A DNA stretch of 11,755 bases from assembly GCA_900554135.1 (NCBI GenBank), contig USFU01000038.1:1-11755 (forward strand), given 5' to 3'. The DNA is from an uncultured Collinsella sp. GTDB taxonomy: Bacteria > Actinomycetota > Coriobacteriia > Coriobacteriales > Coriobacteriaceae. Of this stretch, positions 5,935-11,755 are shown in pieces (positions within the stretch are counted from its first letter, which is position 1; each line of letters opens with the position of its first letter). The position numbers were made by a program, and so were the translations under genes. The notes beneath the pieces were generated by a model. It ran no database searches and was not told where the DNA came from. It saw nothing but the letters and a program-made list of their open reading frames with translations.

Positions 5935-6642
5935 ATGACTGACCAAGTTTTTGACCGAGCACAGCTGGCCGAAGCCGTCGGCAACGATATTGCCGACATG
6001 GCTCACTTTTGGATGCTGCGGAAGTTTCAATTCCTGGAGCCGGCGCGCGAGCAGTTCGAGATTATCGTCGATCCGTGGCTCAGCTATTGCGAGGAACCTT
6101 CTCAAAACGAAATCATGGCCTACAACATGGCGTTTACCGATTGGCTGCTGTTTGAGCGCCCCTATTACCACGGCAAGACGCTGTTGGAGCTGTATGTGGA
6201 TGAGCCGCCAGCGTCAATTTCTCCTGCTTCGCTCGGGCGACTTAAGCAGGTGCGTGACACGCAGCATTTCTCGCGCTTTGGCATTTTGGACAAGGATCCC
6301 GCGACTGGCATGGTCGTGCTGAAAGACACGCGCACCGACCGTCGCTTTGACGTCTACGACCCACATATCGTGCAAAAGGAGCACTGGAACGATGGCGCGA
6401 TCGCGGTGCGACTCGCGTGCGTCGACGATGTCTGGCTGACGGCGGGGCAGCTCTACTTGTATGACATCGCGCGTCTGAGCGACACAGCGGTCGACGGGCC
6501 GGGCGCGGTGCATCCCGAGGACCTAGAGGACGGTTTCGACACCTCGTGCATCAGCTTCTTTTTGCGCCTGGTCCGTGACGTCATGGGCGCCCAGGGGCGG
6601 TACGTGAAGTCGCTCAATATTTACGAGCAGGAATGGGAGTAG
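5935..6642 (+). CDS. Hypothetical protein, 235 residues, possibly related to uncharacterised SEC-C-associated proteins
   Basis: I do not recognise a named family. The protein is soluble-looking, with no signal peptide or membrane segment, is rich in aromatic and acidic residues, and has many Trp/Tyr/Phe. Residues 63-90 (AFTDWLLFERP, then GKTLLELYV) followed by a segment of the type SPASLGRLKQ and then a beta-rich stretch (115-180) recall, from memory only, bacterial proteins that often end in an SEC-C zinc motif. No such Cys cluster is present here. The ATG at 5935 is well supported by GAGGAGGA ending 4 bases upstream. The gene is monocistronic by position: a 424-base gap precedes it and a palindrome array begins 38 bases after its stop. 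Coding potential is convincing from the codon pattern and clean start; function is unknown. Confidence 0.82.
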   Translation: MTDQVFDRAQLAEAVGNDIADMAHFWMLRKFQFLEPAREQFEIIVDPWLSYCEEPSQNEIMAYNMAFTDWLLFERPYYHGKTLLELYVDEPPASISPASLGRLKQVRDTQHFSRFGILDKDPATGMVVLKDTRTDRRFDVYDPHIVQKEHWNDGAIAVRLACVDDVWLTAGQLYLYDIARLSDTAVDGPGAVHPEDLEDGFDTSCISFFLRLVRDVMGAQGRYVKSLNIYEQEWE

Positions 6643-6679
6643 GGGATGGACTGTCTCCCGCCTTGCCTTCTGCCTTTAT

Positions 6680-6978
6680 GTCTCGATTTGTAACGTTTGG
6701 GGACAAAAAACCGGTCTACCTGTTACAGATCGAGACGAACGCTTGGGCGCCGCTGGTTTGTCTAAATCTGTAACGTTTGGGTGCCTGGAGAACGTCTTAC
6801 TGTTACGGATCGAGACGTTTGGCATCTGGCTGGGGGGAATGTCTCAATCTGTAACATCTAGCGGCCAAAAATCGGTCTTCCTGTTACAGATTGAGACAAA
6901 GAGGTGCAATGCTGCGCGAATGTCTCGATCTGTAACGTTTGGCGGCTGCTTGTGCCCGTAATTGTTACAGATCAAGAC
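6680..6978. repeat. Upstream palindromic array: four 57-base units, 23-24-base spacers
   Basis: Units 1-4 lie at 6680-6736, 6760-6816, 6841-6897 and 6922-6978. Each is exactly 57 bases: a 15-base left arm of the type GTCTCGATCTGTAAC, a 27-base centre and a 15-base right arm of the type GTTACAGATCGAGAC. Spacers are 23, 24 and 24 bases, so the period is 80-81. Unit 3 has perfectly matching arms, unit 1 has one G-T wobble, unit 4 has one mismatch and unit 2 has three. The centres of several units can pair a little further (GGCC with GGTC around an A-rich loop in unit 3). Spacer and centre sequences are related between units, unlike CRISPR spacers. No cas gene is present. The array lies directly before the nuclease-like gene, and unit 4 would overlap that gene if it began at the upstream TTG. 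Confidence 0.93.
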
Positions 6979-7031
6979 GTTTGTCGACAGTGGCAACGGT
7001 GGCAATGGTCCATTTGTCCGATGTGGTGGTG

Positions 7032-8075
7032 ATGGAAGTGTCTAATACCGTTCTTAAACACAAGCATGCAACACGTAACACCTTGGCGCGGAATAGGATG
7101 CTTGCCAGGCTCACGAAGGCGGCTGAACAAGGCGTGCTGCTTGTGACACACGACAATGCCGAGCTCATGTGGCTGCGGCGTCATGTGGGAATCGATGATA
7201 TTGCGGAGCCCGAGCCGTATCTGTTCTGTTTTCAACATGATTGGGATGCGTTGACGTCGGCGGAGCGAGCGCTGCGTACCATCAAAGGGCTTGTGGAGTT
7301 TCATCCCGATTGGGCGTTTTGGGGTTATGACGCGGCGCTTTTGTGGGGTCTGGAGGTGCCGAATGATCTGCTCGGGCCGCGATTTCTTGTTAAGACAGGT
7401 TGCTCGGTGCCGCTGAGTGCAGGATGCCGGCTGATGCGTCCGCAGGCGGCGGGTGCGCTTGAACAAGTCGACGGCGTGCGGGTGACGCCGTTTTGGCGCA
7501 CGGTAGAGGATTGCCTGCTGCGCGCGCCGTTTTCGTATGGCCTGGCGATTGCCGATTCTGCGTTGCGAACAAAGGGCGTATCGCGCGATGACCTGAGCGA
7601 GTGTCTCCGCTCCGATTGCGAGGGCAGGCGAGGGCATCGCAGAGCGCAGGTGATCGCGTCGTATGCGGACGGGCTGTCTGAAAACGGCGGCGAGTCTCGT
7701 TTTCGGGCGTTCTTTATTGCATACGGTTTTCCGGTGCCAGAGTTGCAGGTGGAGTTTCGTGATCCGCTCGATCTGAATCAGGTATTTCGAGTCGACTATT
7801 TCTGGAGGCTCGAGGACGGAACGTGCGTGATTGGCGAGCTGGACGGAAAGGGGAAGTATACCCTGCAGGATGGTGGGGGTCGGGAGTCGATCGACCCATT
7901 CGTGGCAGAACGTCAGCGAGAGTCTCATCTGACGATGCTCGGACACAAGGTGCTTCGGTTTACGTTTGATGAGCTCAAGAATCCGAGGAAGCTGGCTGAA
8001 AAGATGAGACTGGCGGGCATTCCGCAGCGGGTTGATCTGGCGGAGGAATGGAGGCGGCAGTGGTACGGACGCTGA
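7032..8075 (+). CDS. AbiEi-like protein with C-terminal DUF559-type nuclease-like domain, flanked by palindromic arrays
   Basis: The protein is 347 residues if it starts at ATG 7032. Residues 23-65 (RMLARLTKAAEQGVLLVTHD and following) look like the N-terminal helix-turn-helix region of AbiEi-type proteins common in actinobacteria. Residues 80-190 fit the AbiEi-like middle part (WGYDAALLWGL at 97-107). The C-terminal part has ESRFR (221-225), RVDYFW (253-258) and GELDGKGKY (268-276), which read as the E, D and E-x-D-x-K acidic/lysine set of the DUF559/PD-(D/E)xK fold. The late motif KVLRFTFDEL (306-315) is typical of the same fold. No AbiEii toxin partner is adjacent. The start is uncertain: the frame is open back to a TTG at 6939 inside palindrome unit 4, and ATGs at 7005 and 7098 are alternatives, none with a strong ribosome binding site. 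Codon use is less GC-biased than the glt genes, which hints at horizontal acquisition. Confidence 0.82.
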   Translation: MEVSNTVLKHKHATRNTLARNRMLARLTKAAEQGVLLVTHDNAELMWLRRHVGIDDIAEPEPYLFCFQHDWDALTSAERALRTIKGLVEFHPDWAFWGYDAALLWGLEVPNDLLGPRFLVKTGCSVPLSAGCRLMRPQAAGALEQVDGVRVTPFWRTVEDCLLRAPFSYGLAIADSALRTKGVSRDDLSECLRSDCEGRRGHRRAQVIASYADGLSENGGESRFRAFFIAYGFPVPELQVEFRDPLDLNQVFRVDYFWRLEDGTCVIGELDGKGKYTLQDGGGRESIDPFVAERQRESHLTMLGHKVLRFTFDELKNPRKLAEKMRLAGIPQRVDLAEEWRRQWYGR

Positions 8076-8116
8076 GGGGTGCAACTGACGCGGATGTGGT
8101 TGTTCCTGCCGAGTTT

Positions 8117-8414
8117 GTCTCGATCTGTAACAACAAGGAGCCGTTTGGCCACGTAACTGTTACAGATCAAGACAGAAGGTTGGCTACCGCTAAAAGATCT
8201 CAATCTGTAACATCTAGAGGCCGAAAACCTGTCTACTTGTTACAGAATTAGACGTTTGACGACAGGGCTGGAGAATATCTCAATCTGTAACATCTAACGG
8301 CCGAAATTCGACCCAACTGTTACAGATTGAGACAAAGGTTGGGCGCGGTGCCGAAAGATCTCGATCTGTAACATCTGGCTGCTAAAACCCGGTCTACCTG
8401 TTATAGATTGAGAC
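8117..8414. repeat. Downstream palindromic array: four more 57-base units, 23-24-base spacers
   Basis: Units 5-8 lie at 8117-8173, 8197-8253, 8277-8333 and 8358-8414, all exactly 57 bases with the same 15/27/15 layout as the upstream array. Spacers are 23, 23 and 24 bases. Units 6-8 begin ATCTC instead of GTCTC. Unit 7 has arms matching at all but the outermost base; unit 6 has a degenerate right arm (ending GAATTAGAC); unit 8 has GTTATAG in place of GTTACAG. The array starts 41 bases after the stop of the nuclease-like gene and ends 149 bases before the amidohydrolase start. It has no T-tracts, so it is not a set of intrinsic terminators. Confidence 0.93.
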
Positions 8415-8518
8415 ATTTCCCGGATGTCGCTGGGATGGGACTGCAACGCATTCCGTTCCCCGCATCTTCTCCTTTCTCCGTTAACCGATATGTCCGCAGC
8501 AACCCTGTCGCGCTGGGT

Positions 8519-8524
8519 GATAAT
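8519..8524 (+). promoter_or_regulatory. Possible -10 element upstream of the amidohydrolase gene
   Basis: GATAAT lies 39 bases before the ATG at 8564 and would give a short leader containing the ribosome binding site. No good -35 is visible at 16-18 bases upstream, so this is only a candidate. The rest of 8415-8563 shows nothing else clear. Confidence 0.25.
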
Positions 8525-8550
8525 GGACAAATGTTCAAGTTAATCGTGAG

Positions 8551-8557
8551 GGAGGAG
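8551..8557 (+). promoter_or_regulatory. Ribosome binding site that fixes the amidohydrolase start
   Basis: GGAGGAG ends 6 bases before ATG 8564. The frame is open further upstream to an ATG at 8408 inside palindrome unit 8, but that extension would encode 52 residues of repeat-derived sequence and has no such site. Confidence 0.8.
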
Positions 8558-8563
8558 CTCGAT

Positions 8564-9934
8564 ATGGCGACTGCCGATCGTCCCACGTTGTTTATCAATG
8601 CGACCGTCCTGGATGGCTCGGAGCATATGGAGCCGCAGCCCGATATGGCCGTGGCCGTTGAGCGCGGTGTCATCACCTGGATGGGACCGAGCGCCGTGGC
8701 CCAAGCTCCAGCGGGGGCCGAGGTCATTGACCTGGGCGGTGCGTATCTCATGCCGGGTCTCATCAATATGCACGTGCATCTGTGCGGTTCGGGCAAACCG
8801 GTCTCGGCGGGAGATGCCGGCGCGCTGATGAAGAAGCTCGACAATCCCGTGGGCCGCACCATCGTCCGCCATATCCTCAAAGGCAGCGCCCAGCAACAGC
8901 TGGCAAGCGGCGTGACCACGGTGCGCGGTGCAGGCGACCCGCTGTTTGCCGATCTGGCCGTGCGCAACGCCATCGACGCCGGCAAGTATCAGGGTCCGCG
9001 TCTGGTAGCACCGGGAACGGGTGTCACGGTGCCGGGTGGCCACGGTGCGGGCCTCTTTGCGCAGGTGGCCAATACTCCCGACGAGGCGGCCGAACAGGTG
9101 CGTGATTTGTATGCGCGCGGTGCCGACGTCATCAAGCTGTTCGTGACGGGTGGCGTGTTCGATGCGACCGAAGTAGGCGAGCCGGGCGTGCTGCGCATGC
9201 CGGTCGAGGTTGCCGCTGCGGCGTGCAAGGCGGCGCACGAGGTCGGCCTTCCGGTCATGGCCCATGTCGAGAGCACCGAAGGCGTGAAGGCCGCGCTTCA
9301 GGCCGGCGTCGATACGATCGAGCACGGCGCTCCGTTGACGCCTGAGATCCTGGAGCTGTACCGCGGCGCCGCGGGAACACAGCTCGAGGGACGCGTGCCG
9401 AGCGTGACCTGCACGATCAGTCCGGCGCTGCCGTTTGTGTTGCTCGACCCGGAGAAGACTCATTCGACCGACACGCAAAAGAAGAACGGCGACATCGTGT
9501 GCTCGGGCATTATCGAGAGCGCCTGTGCCGCACTGGAAGCTGGCGTTAAGGTGGGCCTGGGCACGGACTCAAGCTGCCCGTTCGTGACGCAGTACGACAT
9601 GTGGCGCGAGGTGGCCTACTTTGCCAAGTACGTCAAAGTGAGCAATGCCTTTGCACTGCACACGGCCACGCAGGCCAATGCCGAGCTGCTGGGGCTGGGC
9701 GGCGAGACCGGTGCGATCGAGTGCGGCAAGGCGGCCGACATTTTGGTGACGCGCGAGAACCCGCTCGATGACCTGTGTGCTCTGCGTGAGCCAATGCACG
9801 TGATGTGCCGCGGCAACCTGGTGCGCAAGCTGAAGGTCAAGCGCATCCCCGAGGTTGATACCGAGCTCGACGCGATTATGGCCATGCCGGTAGAAGCCCT
9901 GGCAGAGGAGCTTGCCCGCGATGGCGTAGCTTAG
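8564..9934 (+). CDS. Metal-dependent amidohydrolase (imidazolonepropionase/prolidase-like)
   Basis: The protein has 456 residues from ATG 8564, a normal length for the amidohydrolase superfamily. It begins with the small beta-sandwich (FINATVLDG, 10-18) and continues with PGLINMHVHL (64-73), whose H70-x-H72 pair binds the first metal. K191 in DVIKLFVTGG is in the position of the carboxylated bridging lysine. H234 (MAHVES), H254 (TIEHG) and D335 (GLGTDSS) complete the metal/catalytic set, and GGHG (158-161) is typical of the COG1228 branch. All expected ligands are present, so it is probably active as a binuclear hydrolase of a cyclic amide or X-Pro/X-Arg-type peptide. The substrate cannot be told from sequence. 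No histidine-degradation genes are nearby, which argues against a true HutI. No signal peptide is seen, so it is likely cytoplasmic. It stands alone on the plus strand and ends at a shared terminator. Confidence 0.93.
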   Translation: MATADRPTLFINATVLDGSEHMEPQPDMAVAVERGVITWMGPSAVAQAPAGAEVIDLGGAYLMPGLINMHVHLCGSGKPVSAGDAGALMKKLDNPVGRTIVRHILKGSAQQQLASGVTTVRGAGDPLFADLAVRNAIDAGKYQGPRLVAPGTGVTVPGGHGAGLFAQVANTPDEAAEQVRDLYARGADVIKLFVTGGVFDATEVGEPGVLRMPVEVAAAACKAAHEVGLPVMAHVESTEGVKAALQAGVDTIEHGAPLTPEILELYRGAAGTQLEGRVPSVTCTISPALPFVLLDPEKTHSTDTQKKNGDIVCSGIIESACAALEAGVKVGLGTDSSCPFVTQYDMWREVAYFAKYVKVSNAFALHTATQANAELLGLGGETGAIECGKAADILVTRENPLDDLCALREPMHVMCRGNLVRKLKVKRIPEVDTELDAIMAMPVEALAEELARDGVA

Positions 9935-10629: not shown

Positions 10630-10902
10630 TTACTTGGAGAGCTTGTCGACGACGCGTTCGATCTCGGCGAGCTTGGCGGCTTTGAGGTCTTCGTCGCCCG
10701 ATTCGATTGCCGAAGTCACGCAGCCCTCGATATGCGCCTTGAGCACGTCGGCGTTGATGCGGGCGATGAGCGCCTGCGTGGCCATGAGCTGCGTGGAGAT
10801 GTCGACGCAGTAACGGTCTTCCTCCACCATCCGCAGGATGCCGTCGATTTGCCCGCGCGCCGTCTTGAGCATGCGGGTCACCGATTTATGGTCTGCCATC
10901 AT
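10630..10902 (-). CDS. csoR: CsoR-type copper-sensing transcriptional repressor
   Basis: This 90-residue all-helical protein belongs to the CsoR/RcnR/FrmR family. The N-terminal SVTRMLKTARGQIDGILRMV (7-26) is the conserved first helix. C32, H57 and C61 keep the C-x24-H-x3-C spacing of the Cys-His-Cys Cu(I) site of CsoR, which separates it from the nickel and formaldehyde sensors of the same family. Members bind operator DNA as tetramers and let go when Cu(I) binds; here the likely target is the copper operon itself. Two ATG codons are adjacent (10902 and 10899). GAGGA ending 6 bases upstream of the first supports either. The gene is downstream of copZ with a 48-base gap, so it is probably the last of the copper genes on the same transcript and makes the response self-limiting. 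Confidence 0.93.
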   Translation of the reverse strand: MMADHKSVTRMLKTARGQIDGILRMVEEDRYCVDISTQLMATQALIARINADVLKAHIEGCVTSAIESGDEDLKAAKLAEIERVVDKLSK

Positions 10903-10950
10903 GGCGGGTCCTCGTTTCTGGTCGATGGGGTCGAATGTCTCTGGTAGCTG

Positions 10951-11172
10951 CTACGCGGCGGTTACGGACAGGGCGTGGAACTTCTCGCCGGCGCCCTCGA
11001 CGGCGGCAGTAAGCTGCTCGGCGGTCACGGTGTCGGCGCACTCTACCTGTACGGTCTGAGTCTCGTGATCGGCATCGGCGTCGGTCACGCCGGCCACGTT
11101 GAGCAGCGCGGTCTCGACAGTAGCGTCGCAGTGGCCGCACATAAGGCCAGACGTTTTAACGATGTAGTTCAT
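10951..11172 (-). CDS. copZ: Copper chaperone, heavy-metal-associated (HMA) domain
   Basis: The 73-residue protein is a single HMA (ferredoxin-like) domain. The metal-binding loop GLMCGHCDATVE has the M-x-C-x-x-C pattern with cysteines 12 and 15, which binds Cu(I). The second half (VTAEQLTAAVEGAGEKF) fits the last helix and strand of the fold. Such proteins carry Cu(I) in the cytoplasm to the exporting ATPase or to the CsoR repressor. The start at 11172 is secure: AAAAGGAG ends 6 bases upstream. The gene lies 79 bases after the copA stop, with an inverted repeat between them, and 48 bases before csoR, all on the minus strand. Confidence 0.94.
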   Translation of the reverse strand: MNYIVKTSGLMCGHCDATVETALLNVAGVTDADADHETQTVQVECADTVTAEQLTAAVEGAGEKFHALSVTAA

Positions 11173-11200
11173 GATTATCTCCTTTTCGTTGAGTACCTAA

Positions 11201-11267
11201 AGTTGCGGTGGAATACGGACTAAATAGCGGTTTAGCTAAGCATGTTACGCCTTATTTCACCGCAACT
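11201..11267. repeat. Inverted repeat spanning the copA stop codon
   Basis: AGTTGCGGTG (11201-11210) is the exact reverse complement of CACCGCAACT (11258-11267). Pairing continues inward to 15 positions a side with one G-T wobble. The 37-base interior holds CTAAA/TTTAG and the palindrome TTAGCTAA. One arm includes the copA stop codon (11252-11254). There is no U-run on the copZ side, so it is more likely an mRNA processing or stability structure, or a dispersed repeat, than a terminator. Confidence 0.75.
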
Positions 11268-11755
11268 GATGGCTTAAAGGTTCGCAGGCGCAGCGCATTG
11301 CTCACAACGCAGACACTCGACAGGCTCATGGCCGCGGCGCCAAACATCGGCGAGAGCTGCCATCCGGTGAGCGGGAAGAACACGCCCGCCGCCAGCGGAA
11401 TGCCGATGCCGTTGTAGAACAGTGCCCAGAACAGGTCCTGTTTGATGTTGCGGATCGTGGCGCGCGACAGCTCGATGGCCCGCGCAACATCCATAAGGTC
11501 GCTGCGCATGAGCACCACGTCGGCACCCTCCTTGGCGATATCGGCGCCGGTGCCGATGGCAAGGCCCACGTCGGCGCGCGCCAGGGCGGGGGAGTCATTG
11601 ATACCGTCGCCCACCACGGCGACCTTGCCGCCCGCATTCTGCAGTTCGCGCACGTGGCGTTCCTTGTCGGCGGGGAGGACGTCGGCGATAACCTGCTCGC
11701 TGGTGAGTTCCACACGGCGGGCGATGGCCTCGGCCGTCACGCGGTTGTCGCCGGT
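11252..11755 (-). CDS. copA: Cu+-exporting P-type ATPase, C-terminal part; 5' end beyond the window
   Basis: The frame is open to the right edge, so only the last 167 residues are visible. They begin with TGDNR, the nucleotide-domain motif that precedes the hinge, and continue with DVLPADKE and [16 protein letters not shown], the hinge motif closing the phosphorylation domain. Two membrane helices follow. The seventh carries ALFYN and the eighth carries MSLSS, then [10 protein letters not shown]. The Tyr-Asn and Met-x-x-Ser-Ser residues are the Cu(I)-coordinating marks of the P1B-1 group, so this is a copper (or silver) exporter rather than a zinc or cadmium pump. The GTG at 11740 is internal and not a start. 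The gene leads the copA-copZ-csoR series on the minus strand. Confidence 0.95.

Follow-up and report, generated by a model that had tools for sequence, protein, structure and literature searches.

The window, that is the whole stretch of 11,755 nucleotides of Collinsella DNA analyzed here, contains one gene bordered on both sides by arrays of palindromic units. The gene (7005..8075, + strand) encodes a protein of 356 amino acids from the ATG at 7005; this start is uncertain, there being a further in-frame ATG at 7032 and a frame open from a TTG at 6939, with the end at 8075. The upstream array (6680..6978, no strand assigned) consists of four units at 6680-6736, 6760-6816, 6841-6897 and 6922-6978, separated by spacers of 23, 24 and 24 bp. 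The downstream array (8117..8414, likewise without strand) consists of four units at 8117-8173, 8197-8253, 8277-8333 and 8358-8414, with spacers of 23, 23 and 24 bp. Each of the eight units is 57 bp long (15-bp arm, 27-bp centre, 15-bp arm), and the two arm starts of a unit are 42 bp apart. The preliminary description, which had reported eight such units in a four-and-four arrangement and six inner spacers of 23 or 24 bases, was exact in lengths and coordinates.

On the left, the locus is adjoined by a gene for a 235-amino-acid protein without Pfam match (5935..6642, +), which also forms the left border of the gene-less locus in the genomes G009, G010 and G014. On the right lies an amidohydrolase gene (8564..9934, +; Pfam Amidohydro_1, E 1e-36), which served as a handle for locating gene-less loci. 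With these two neighbours, an AbiEii toxin gene is absent beside the window gene. Further downstream, the region 10630-11755 includes a metal-sensing repressor (Pfam Trns_repr_metal), close to what we take to be a copper chaperone and the end of a P-type ATPase.

The protein is predicted to combine an AbiEi-like front (7083..7670, +; residues 27-222 counted from the 7005 start, winged helix first) with a Vsr/PD-(D/E)xK-like nuclease domain (7683..8024, +; residues 227-340). The acidic active site of the nuclease domain, with its lysine, is kept in 41/41 or 40/41 family members. The closest structural relative of this domain was the catalytic domain of a homing endonuclease of the I-Bth0305I type, the comparison covering the listed structure matches and leaving room for folds outside that list; Foldseek returned no match to the window protein at E<=0.001. 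The DUF559 (PF04480) match of the window protein reached 13.4 bits, below the curated cut-off of 20.6, and DUF559 was found at E<=0.01 in one of the 41 members. None of the 41 gave a Pfam match to the HUH/Y1 family Transposase_17 at E<=0.01. A sequence search of the PDB gave two chance-level matches only (E 0.75 and 0.89), a phage protein family search gave none, and a defence-library search gave one match, a weak one. The predicted folds thus support the earlier assignment of an AbiEi-like front and a PD-(D/E)xK-like end, and the view that the protein is not a Y1 transposase also held.

Allowing <=2 mismatches, 16 copies of the arm GTCTCRATCTGTAAC were counted in the window, always inside the two arrays, while 200 shuffles of the window contained 0.01 copies on average and one at most. 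Three of the eight units, folded as single-stranded DNA, were more stable than their shuffles (z -6.4, -3.8 and -7.3). Searches of the window for Rfam families at gathering score and for tRNAs gave no hit. Among 169 distinct units of this palindrome, hereafter family A, a centre of 27 nt was found in 167, the centre lengths searched being 26 to 28 nt only, and 12 of the 15 arm positions were at least 96% identical. Comparing left and right arms, position 1 varies independently, position 5 shows weak covariation, and position 6 co-varies with 108 matches against 88 expected. The arms of family A therefore appear to be kept as sequence, with a hint of covariation at positions 5 and 6 only.

A regular repeat array beside a nuclease gene resembles CRISPR or other guide arrays. 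The units differ from those in that they form, centres included, one alignable family. With related centres and no cas-like gene noticed among the ORFs of the window, CRISPR was rejected, as the preliminary description had anticipated.

The units were described at first as occurring only beside this one gene. This is true inside the window but fails beyond it: G001, the nearest genome among those compared, carries 86 arms (<=1 mismatch) spread over 19 places, of which one adjoins the orthologue, with none in a reversed control, and confinement to one gene is thereby ruled out. In a comparison of 98 relatives, 44 to 114 family A arms were detected in 22 of the 43 genomes of the same genus and 0 to 3 in the remaining 21; each of the 55 genomes outside the genus had at most one. 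Of the 22 palindrome-rich genomes, 19 contain an orthologue of the window protein (>=78% identity), compared with 0/21 of the other genomes of the genus and 0/76 of all others. Searching the unit across Collinsella and its relatives thus showed that arrays co-occur with the orthologue. The 22 palindrome-rich genomes probably form one clade, so that the co-occurrence of gene and palindrome counts as about one origin.

One of the 19 orthologues is broken (G024) and two are cut by contig ends. Wherever both flanks of the orthologue were available (17 loci), family A units lay on both sides, and the two cut loci have them on the available side; the number of units per side varies among loci. The genomes G009, G010 and G014 contain the palindromes without the gene; at the site of the gene, one unit lies in G010 and G014 and two in G009. 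Comparison of G042 with G014 revealed differences in arrays and in units of a second palindrome (C, see below), but these adjoin gene-content changes and IS elements, and therefore neither an insertion footprint nor a target duplication of single units was resolved.

We located 25 family A array clusters in 24 loci of G042 and G001. Twenty-three of these are free of an overlap of more than 60 bp with a called ORF (two are not), and 15 lie between tandem, seven between convergent and three between divergent ORFs; control gaps in other loci were 107 tandem, 50 convergent and 64 divergent. These positions bear on the possibility that the system is a regulon, in which the AbiEi-like front would be a repressor, the palindromes its operators and the dispersed copies a regulon or chromosome-organising sites, with the nuclease being secondary. 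The near-invariant arms, the fixed step of 42 bp (about four helical turns) and the scarcity of covariation are what protein half-sites would show, and the upstream array takes up the sequence preceding the start codon. Nevertheless, we regard autoregulation as unlikely, since palindromes stand on both sides of the gene, the upstream copies in other families are often separated from the matched coding region by 200-350 bp, seven of the 25 clusters lie between convergent genes, and the nuclease active site is kept.

A role in defence was also weighed. Tandem repeats beside a nuclease gene resemble type III toxin-antitoxin systems, and by analogy the palindromes or their transcripts might restrain the nuclease or mark self DNA, release of the enzyme leading to attack on phage. 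The AbiEi-like fold would suit such a role. The presence of arrays on either side of the gene and far away from it, as well as the single weak match in the defence library, speaks against it, and a consensus scan of 6600-8560 found no sigma-70-like promoter, although such a scan proves little. This explanation appears improbable to us.

Several distant homologues proved to have other palindromes at their flanks. To determine how general the association is, the two 800-bp flanks of each homologue were compared and scored by their best ungapped match, a score of 20 or more being taken as positive. Forty loci of Coriobacteriia, hand-picked for diversity among the matches listed, had matching flanks in 22 cases, compared with 3/291 neighbouring ORFs; with 700-bp flanks the counts were 22/40 and 3/276. 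The flanks of ten of these 40 loci (L051-L060) had been inspected beforehand, and the score was reached in 4/10 of them and in 18/30 of the others. Among 20 loci from other Actinomycetota, hand-picked among the matches listed and mostly from the stronger ones, 13 were positive, in contrast to 0/131 controls. A further set of 68 loci (the best 80 of 293, less 11 repeats of earlier loci and one with a short flank) gave 48/68 against 2/160. In this set, loci from Collinsella, Olsenella, Bifidobacterium (3/3) and Gordonibacter scored, while those from Slackia and Raoultibacter and three from Enorma remained below 20.

Pooled, a matching repeat was present on both flanks of 83/128 homologues and 5/582 control ORFs, the loci being related to one another so that any p-value would overstate the difference. 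With stricter controls, defined as ORFs with at least 100 bp free of called ORF on both sides, the comparison was 83/128 against 3/126. Palindromes (score >=14) on both sides were detected in 38/128 homologues and in 3/126 of the stricter controls, and where both flanks were read, these usually had whole palindromes rather than half-sites. The other 45/128 homologues had no repeat in common between their flanks at the threshold of 20. In a broader sample of DUF559 (PF04480) proteins, from which 4/30 loci were dropped for short flanks, a score of at least 20 was obtained for 5/18 long and 2/8 short proteins; this lower rate indicates that the trait is most pronounced within the family delimited by alignment A1.

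The specific pairing of palindrome and nuclease gene proposed from the window thus gained support from these counts. Arrays at many sites were indeed found, as in G001, but a link to the gene family is present as well, and the idea that the family usually lacks flanking palindromes failed. It is accordingly very improbable that ordinary REPs or terminators stand beside the gene by chance, with nothing specific involved: the many arrays elsewhere are compatible with chance, but the controls contradict it and so does the private pairing described next.

Comparison of repeats and proteins showed that protein clusters have their own repeats. The 89 flanked loci fell into 66 repeat groups, compared with 64 protein clusters at 70% identity or 66 at 80%. 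A common repeat was shared by 78 of the 83 protein pairs with at least 80% identity and by none of the 3,833 other pairs. All five non-sharing pairs at >=80% belong to a group of 333-amino-acid paralogues with variable arrays. In a single genome, G007, the palindromes A, C and D are found beside three paralogues. As a separate observation made by eye, the paralogues at L063, L065, L066 and L090, whose palindromes differ, have a doubled TTTGGTCAGC-like motif upstream, possibly the operator of those paralogues.

Dispersal within genomes was seen for four repeat families (A, C, L067 and G238). In G028, the genome of the L067 gene, the L067 repeat is found at nine places with 14 arms in total, and the 97 other genomes have none; the four arms beside the gene are exact, and the ten elsewhere all have two mismatches. 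Palindrome C, which lies beside a paralogue of 360 amino acids, is confined to the 22 genomes rich in family A, with 1 to 32 arms in each; the 76 others have none. The segment composed of palindrome C, the 360-amino-acid gene and palindrome C has the same neighbour gene, presumably encoding 5-formyltetrahydrofolate cyclo-ligase, in G007 and G014, and is shortened in G039. All eight further loci with the 360-amino-acid gene are at the same place. Of the 11 searched genomes without this cassette, ten join the neighbours by a short spacer and one (G012) retains remnants of the outer flanks, while 7 to 22 C arms are located elsewhere in these genomes. The one shared locus and the empty sites indicate that the C gene cassette has been inherited at a single site, being acquired or lost as one piece. 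In the compared loci, no jump of the 360-amino-acid gene, no transposition and no clean single-unit insertion were seen.

Three other observations concern palindrome C. In G042 and G007 (L107, L108), another gene is flanked by it on both sides; judging from a motif we take this gene to encode a Fic protein, and a gene nearby is presumably pyrE. A stretch of about 11 kb that is present in G042 and absent from G014 (L149 compared with L143) has C palindromes bordering gene blocks. In G039 (L154), C half-sites (TCCACGCTCG) occur in a run, roughly 20-30 bp apart, beside the shortened paralogue.

The fourth repeat, from a second genus, lies beside the gene of L214; its arms number 179 in G238, and three congeners contain 4 to 12. 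The closest orthologue (>=79% identity) was identified in seven of the 98 genomes of this genus, with 36 to 202 arms. At least 36 arms were present in 7/7 genomes with this orthologue and in 3/91 others (G379, G394 and G421). In two of the seven (G427, G430) the orthologue is split in two and was added by the identity of its pieces after the counts had been seen; with unsplit orthologues only, the counts were 5/5 and 5/93. Two of the three exceptions, G379 (64 arms) and G394 (60 arms), have distant homologues only, and no gene match was obtained for G421, which has 82 arms. Three genomes with a gene of 78% identity contained 2, 2 and 13 arms. Over the 98 genomes, arm count and match strength gave a Spearman coefficient of 0.38, uncorrected for the tree.

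Fourteen of 17 G238 units were aligned, three with another centre length being excluded. Over 28 pairs, 89.8% of the cells pair, compared with 34-48% in slid controls, and 12 of the 28 pairs have both members changed (mean in shuffles 6.2; 0/500 as high). Such both-sided changes indicate that the palindromic symmetry itself is kept, as expected for hairpins or for two-fold binding. In three G238 loci (L313, L314 and L315), an IS of about 1.7 kb, whose transposase looks to us ISL3-like, sits in the centre of a palindrome, flanked, as judged by eye, by a repeat of about 8-9 bp; the arm list of this genome includes at least seven arm pairs 1.67-1.69 kb apart.

These insertions are relevant to another explanation, namely that the palindromes are the target of a homing-like nuclease gene, which inserts into them or is kept between them while they spread by other means. 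The kinship of the nuclease domain with a homing endonuclease and the persistence of palindromes without the gene would agree with it, as would the IS inside the G238 palindromes. Yet the flanks are usually whole palindromes and not half-sites, the repeats are private to protein clusters, and the eight further family C gene loci share one inherited locus. We consider an insertion target to be rather doubtful, slightly more so than the regulon.

The nearest parallel, as proposed from the window sequence, is the REP/REPIN-RAYT system ('REPtron', TnpA-REP), and the flanks, the dispersal and the pairing of repeat and protein supported this comparison. According to the respective papers, RAYT genes are flanked by two inverted REPs, with BIME arrays and REP/RAYT co-evolution (PMC2817692), REPINs have conserved arms, conserved spacer length and compensatory changes (PMC3116915), and RAYTs are the dedicated enzymes of REP/REPIN repeats (PMC2817692, PMC8266576). 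The present system likewise has a gene between palindrome copies (17/17 orthologue loci; 83/128 homologues), dispersed palindromes, whose intergenic position was checked for family A (23/25 clusters), alternating and regularly spaced BIME-like arrays, repeats and proteins that co-vary as pairs (78/83 versus 0/3,833), and compensatory changes in the inner hairpin. However, the enzyme is a predicted AbiEi-like plus Vsr-like nuclease instead of an HUH/Y1 transposase, and the window system is therefore not a RAYT system. The TIRtrons (TIRYT), as described in PMC3733652, also have inverted repeats on either side of a gene, part of them recurring in the genome, but their enzyme is a RAYT-like tyrosine transposase.

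With the AbiE type IV toxin-antitoxin systems, the protein shares the predicted fold of its winged-helix front; it differs in the fused nuclease, in having no toxin-like neighbour noticed here, and in the palindromes on both sides and dispersed. With Vsr, I-Bth0305I and DUF559 nucleases, the end part shares the fold and the acidic active site, whereas the AbiEi-like fusion and the palindromes are distinctive, the short DUF559 proteins having matching flanks in 2/8 cases. No report of palindromes flanking AbiEi/DUF559 genes was found in the literature within our coverage, which stopped short of preprints and most subscription journals. To our knowledge, the HUH RAYTs are the only dedicated enzyme class for dispersed bacterial palindromes. 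Palindromes without a known dedicated enzyme are noted in PMC3733652. The RepRanger paper (PMC12306157) counts palindromes in three Actinomycetota, and the words RAYT and nuclease are absent from it.

Matching flanks across a phylum, a separate repeat for each protein cluster, dispersal in four families, palindromic pairing kept in one and a conserved active site were observed. We favour, with moderate confidence, the explanation that these belong to a two-part system working like REPIN/RAYT with an unrelated enzyme. It would consist of a single gene, encoding the predicted winged-helix/AbiEi-like front and Vsr-like PD-(D/E)xK nuclease, placed between copies of its own palindrome, and of further copies of that palindrome, which form a population of short elements at other genomic sites. 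The protein may bind its cognate palindrome, as a dimer or on an extruded hairpin, and may cut there; repair or replication would then copy the palindrome to new places and keep the palindromes homogeneous, and the arrays beside the gene would keep enzyme and substrate linked. Palindromes without the gene, as in G009, G010, G014, the eleven family C genomes and G421, fit slow decay after gene loss and equally a gene-independent role.

More tentatively, and with somewhat less than even confidence, we suggest that the Actinobacteria possess, across the phylum, a categorically new class of repeat systems, either selfish or domesticated, in which an AbiEi-Vsr-like nuclease that evolved independently of RAYT recognises and propagates a private palindrome. 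Its specificities would have diverged in Collinsella, Olsenella, Bifidobacterium, Gordonibacter and one genus that is maybe mycobacterial, with several independent pairs in some genomes. If true, the same architecture would exist with two unrelated enzyme classes, showing that repeat-enzyme pairs evolve convergently. Such a finding would also point to a function for many AbiEi/DUF559-like proteins, and would offer dozens of natural protein-palindrome pairs for recognition tests by partner swapping.
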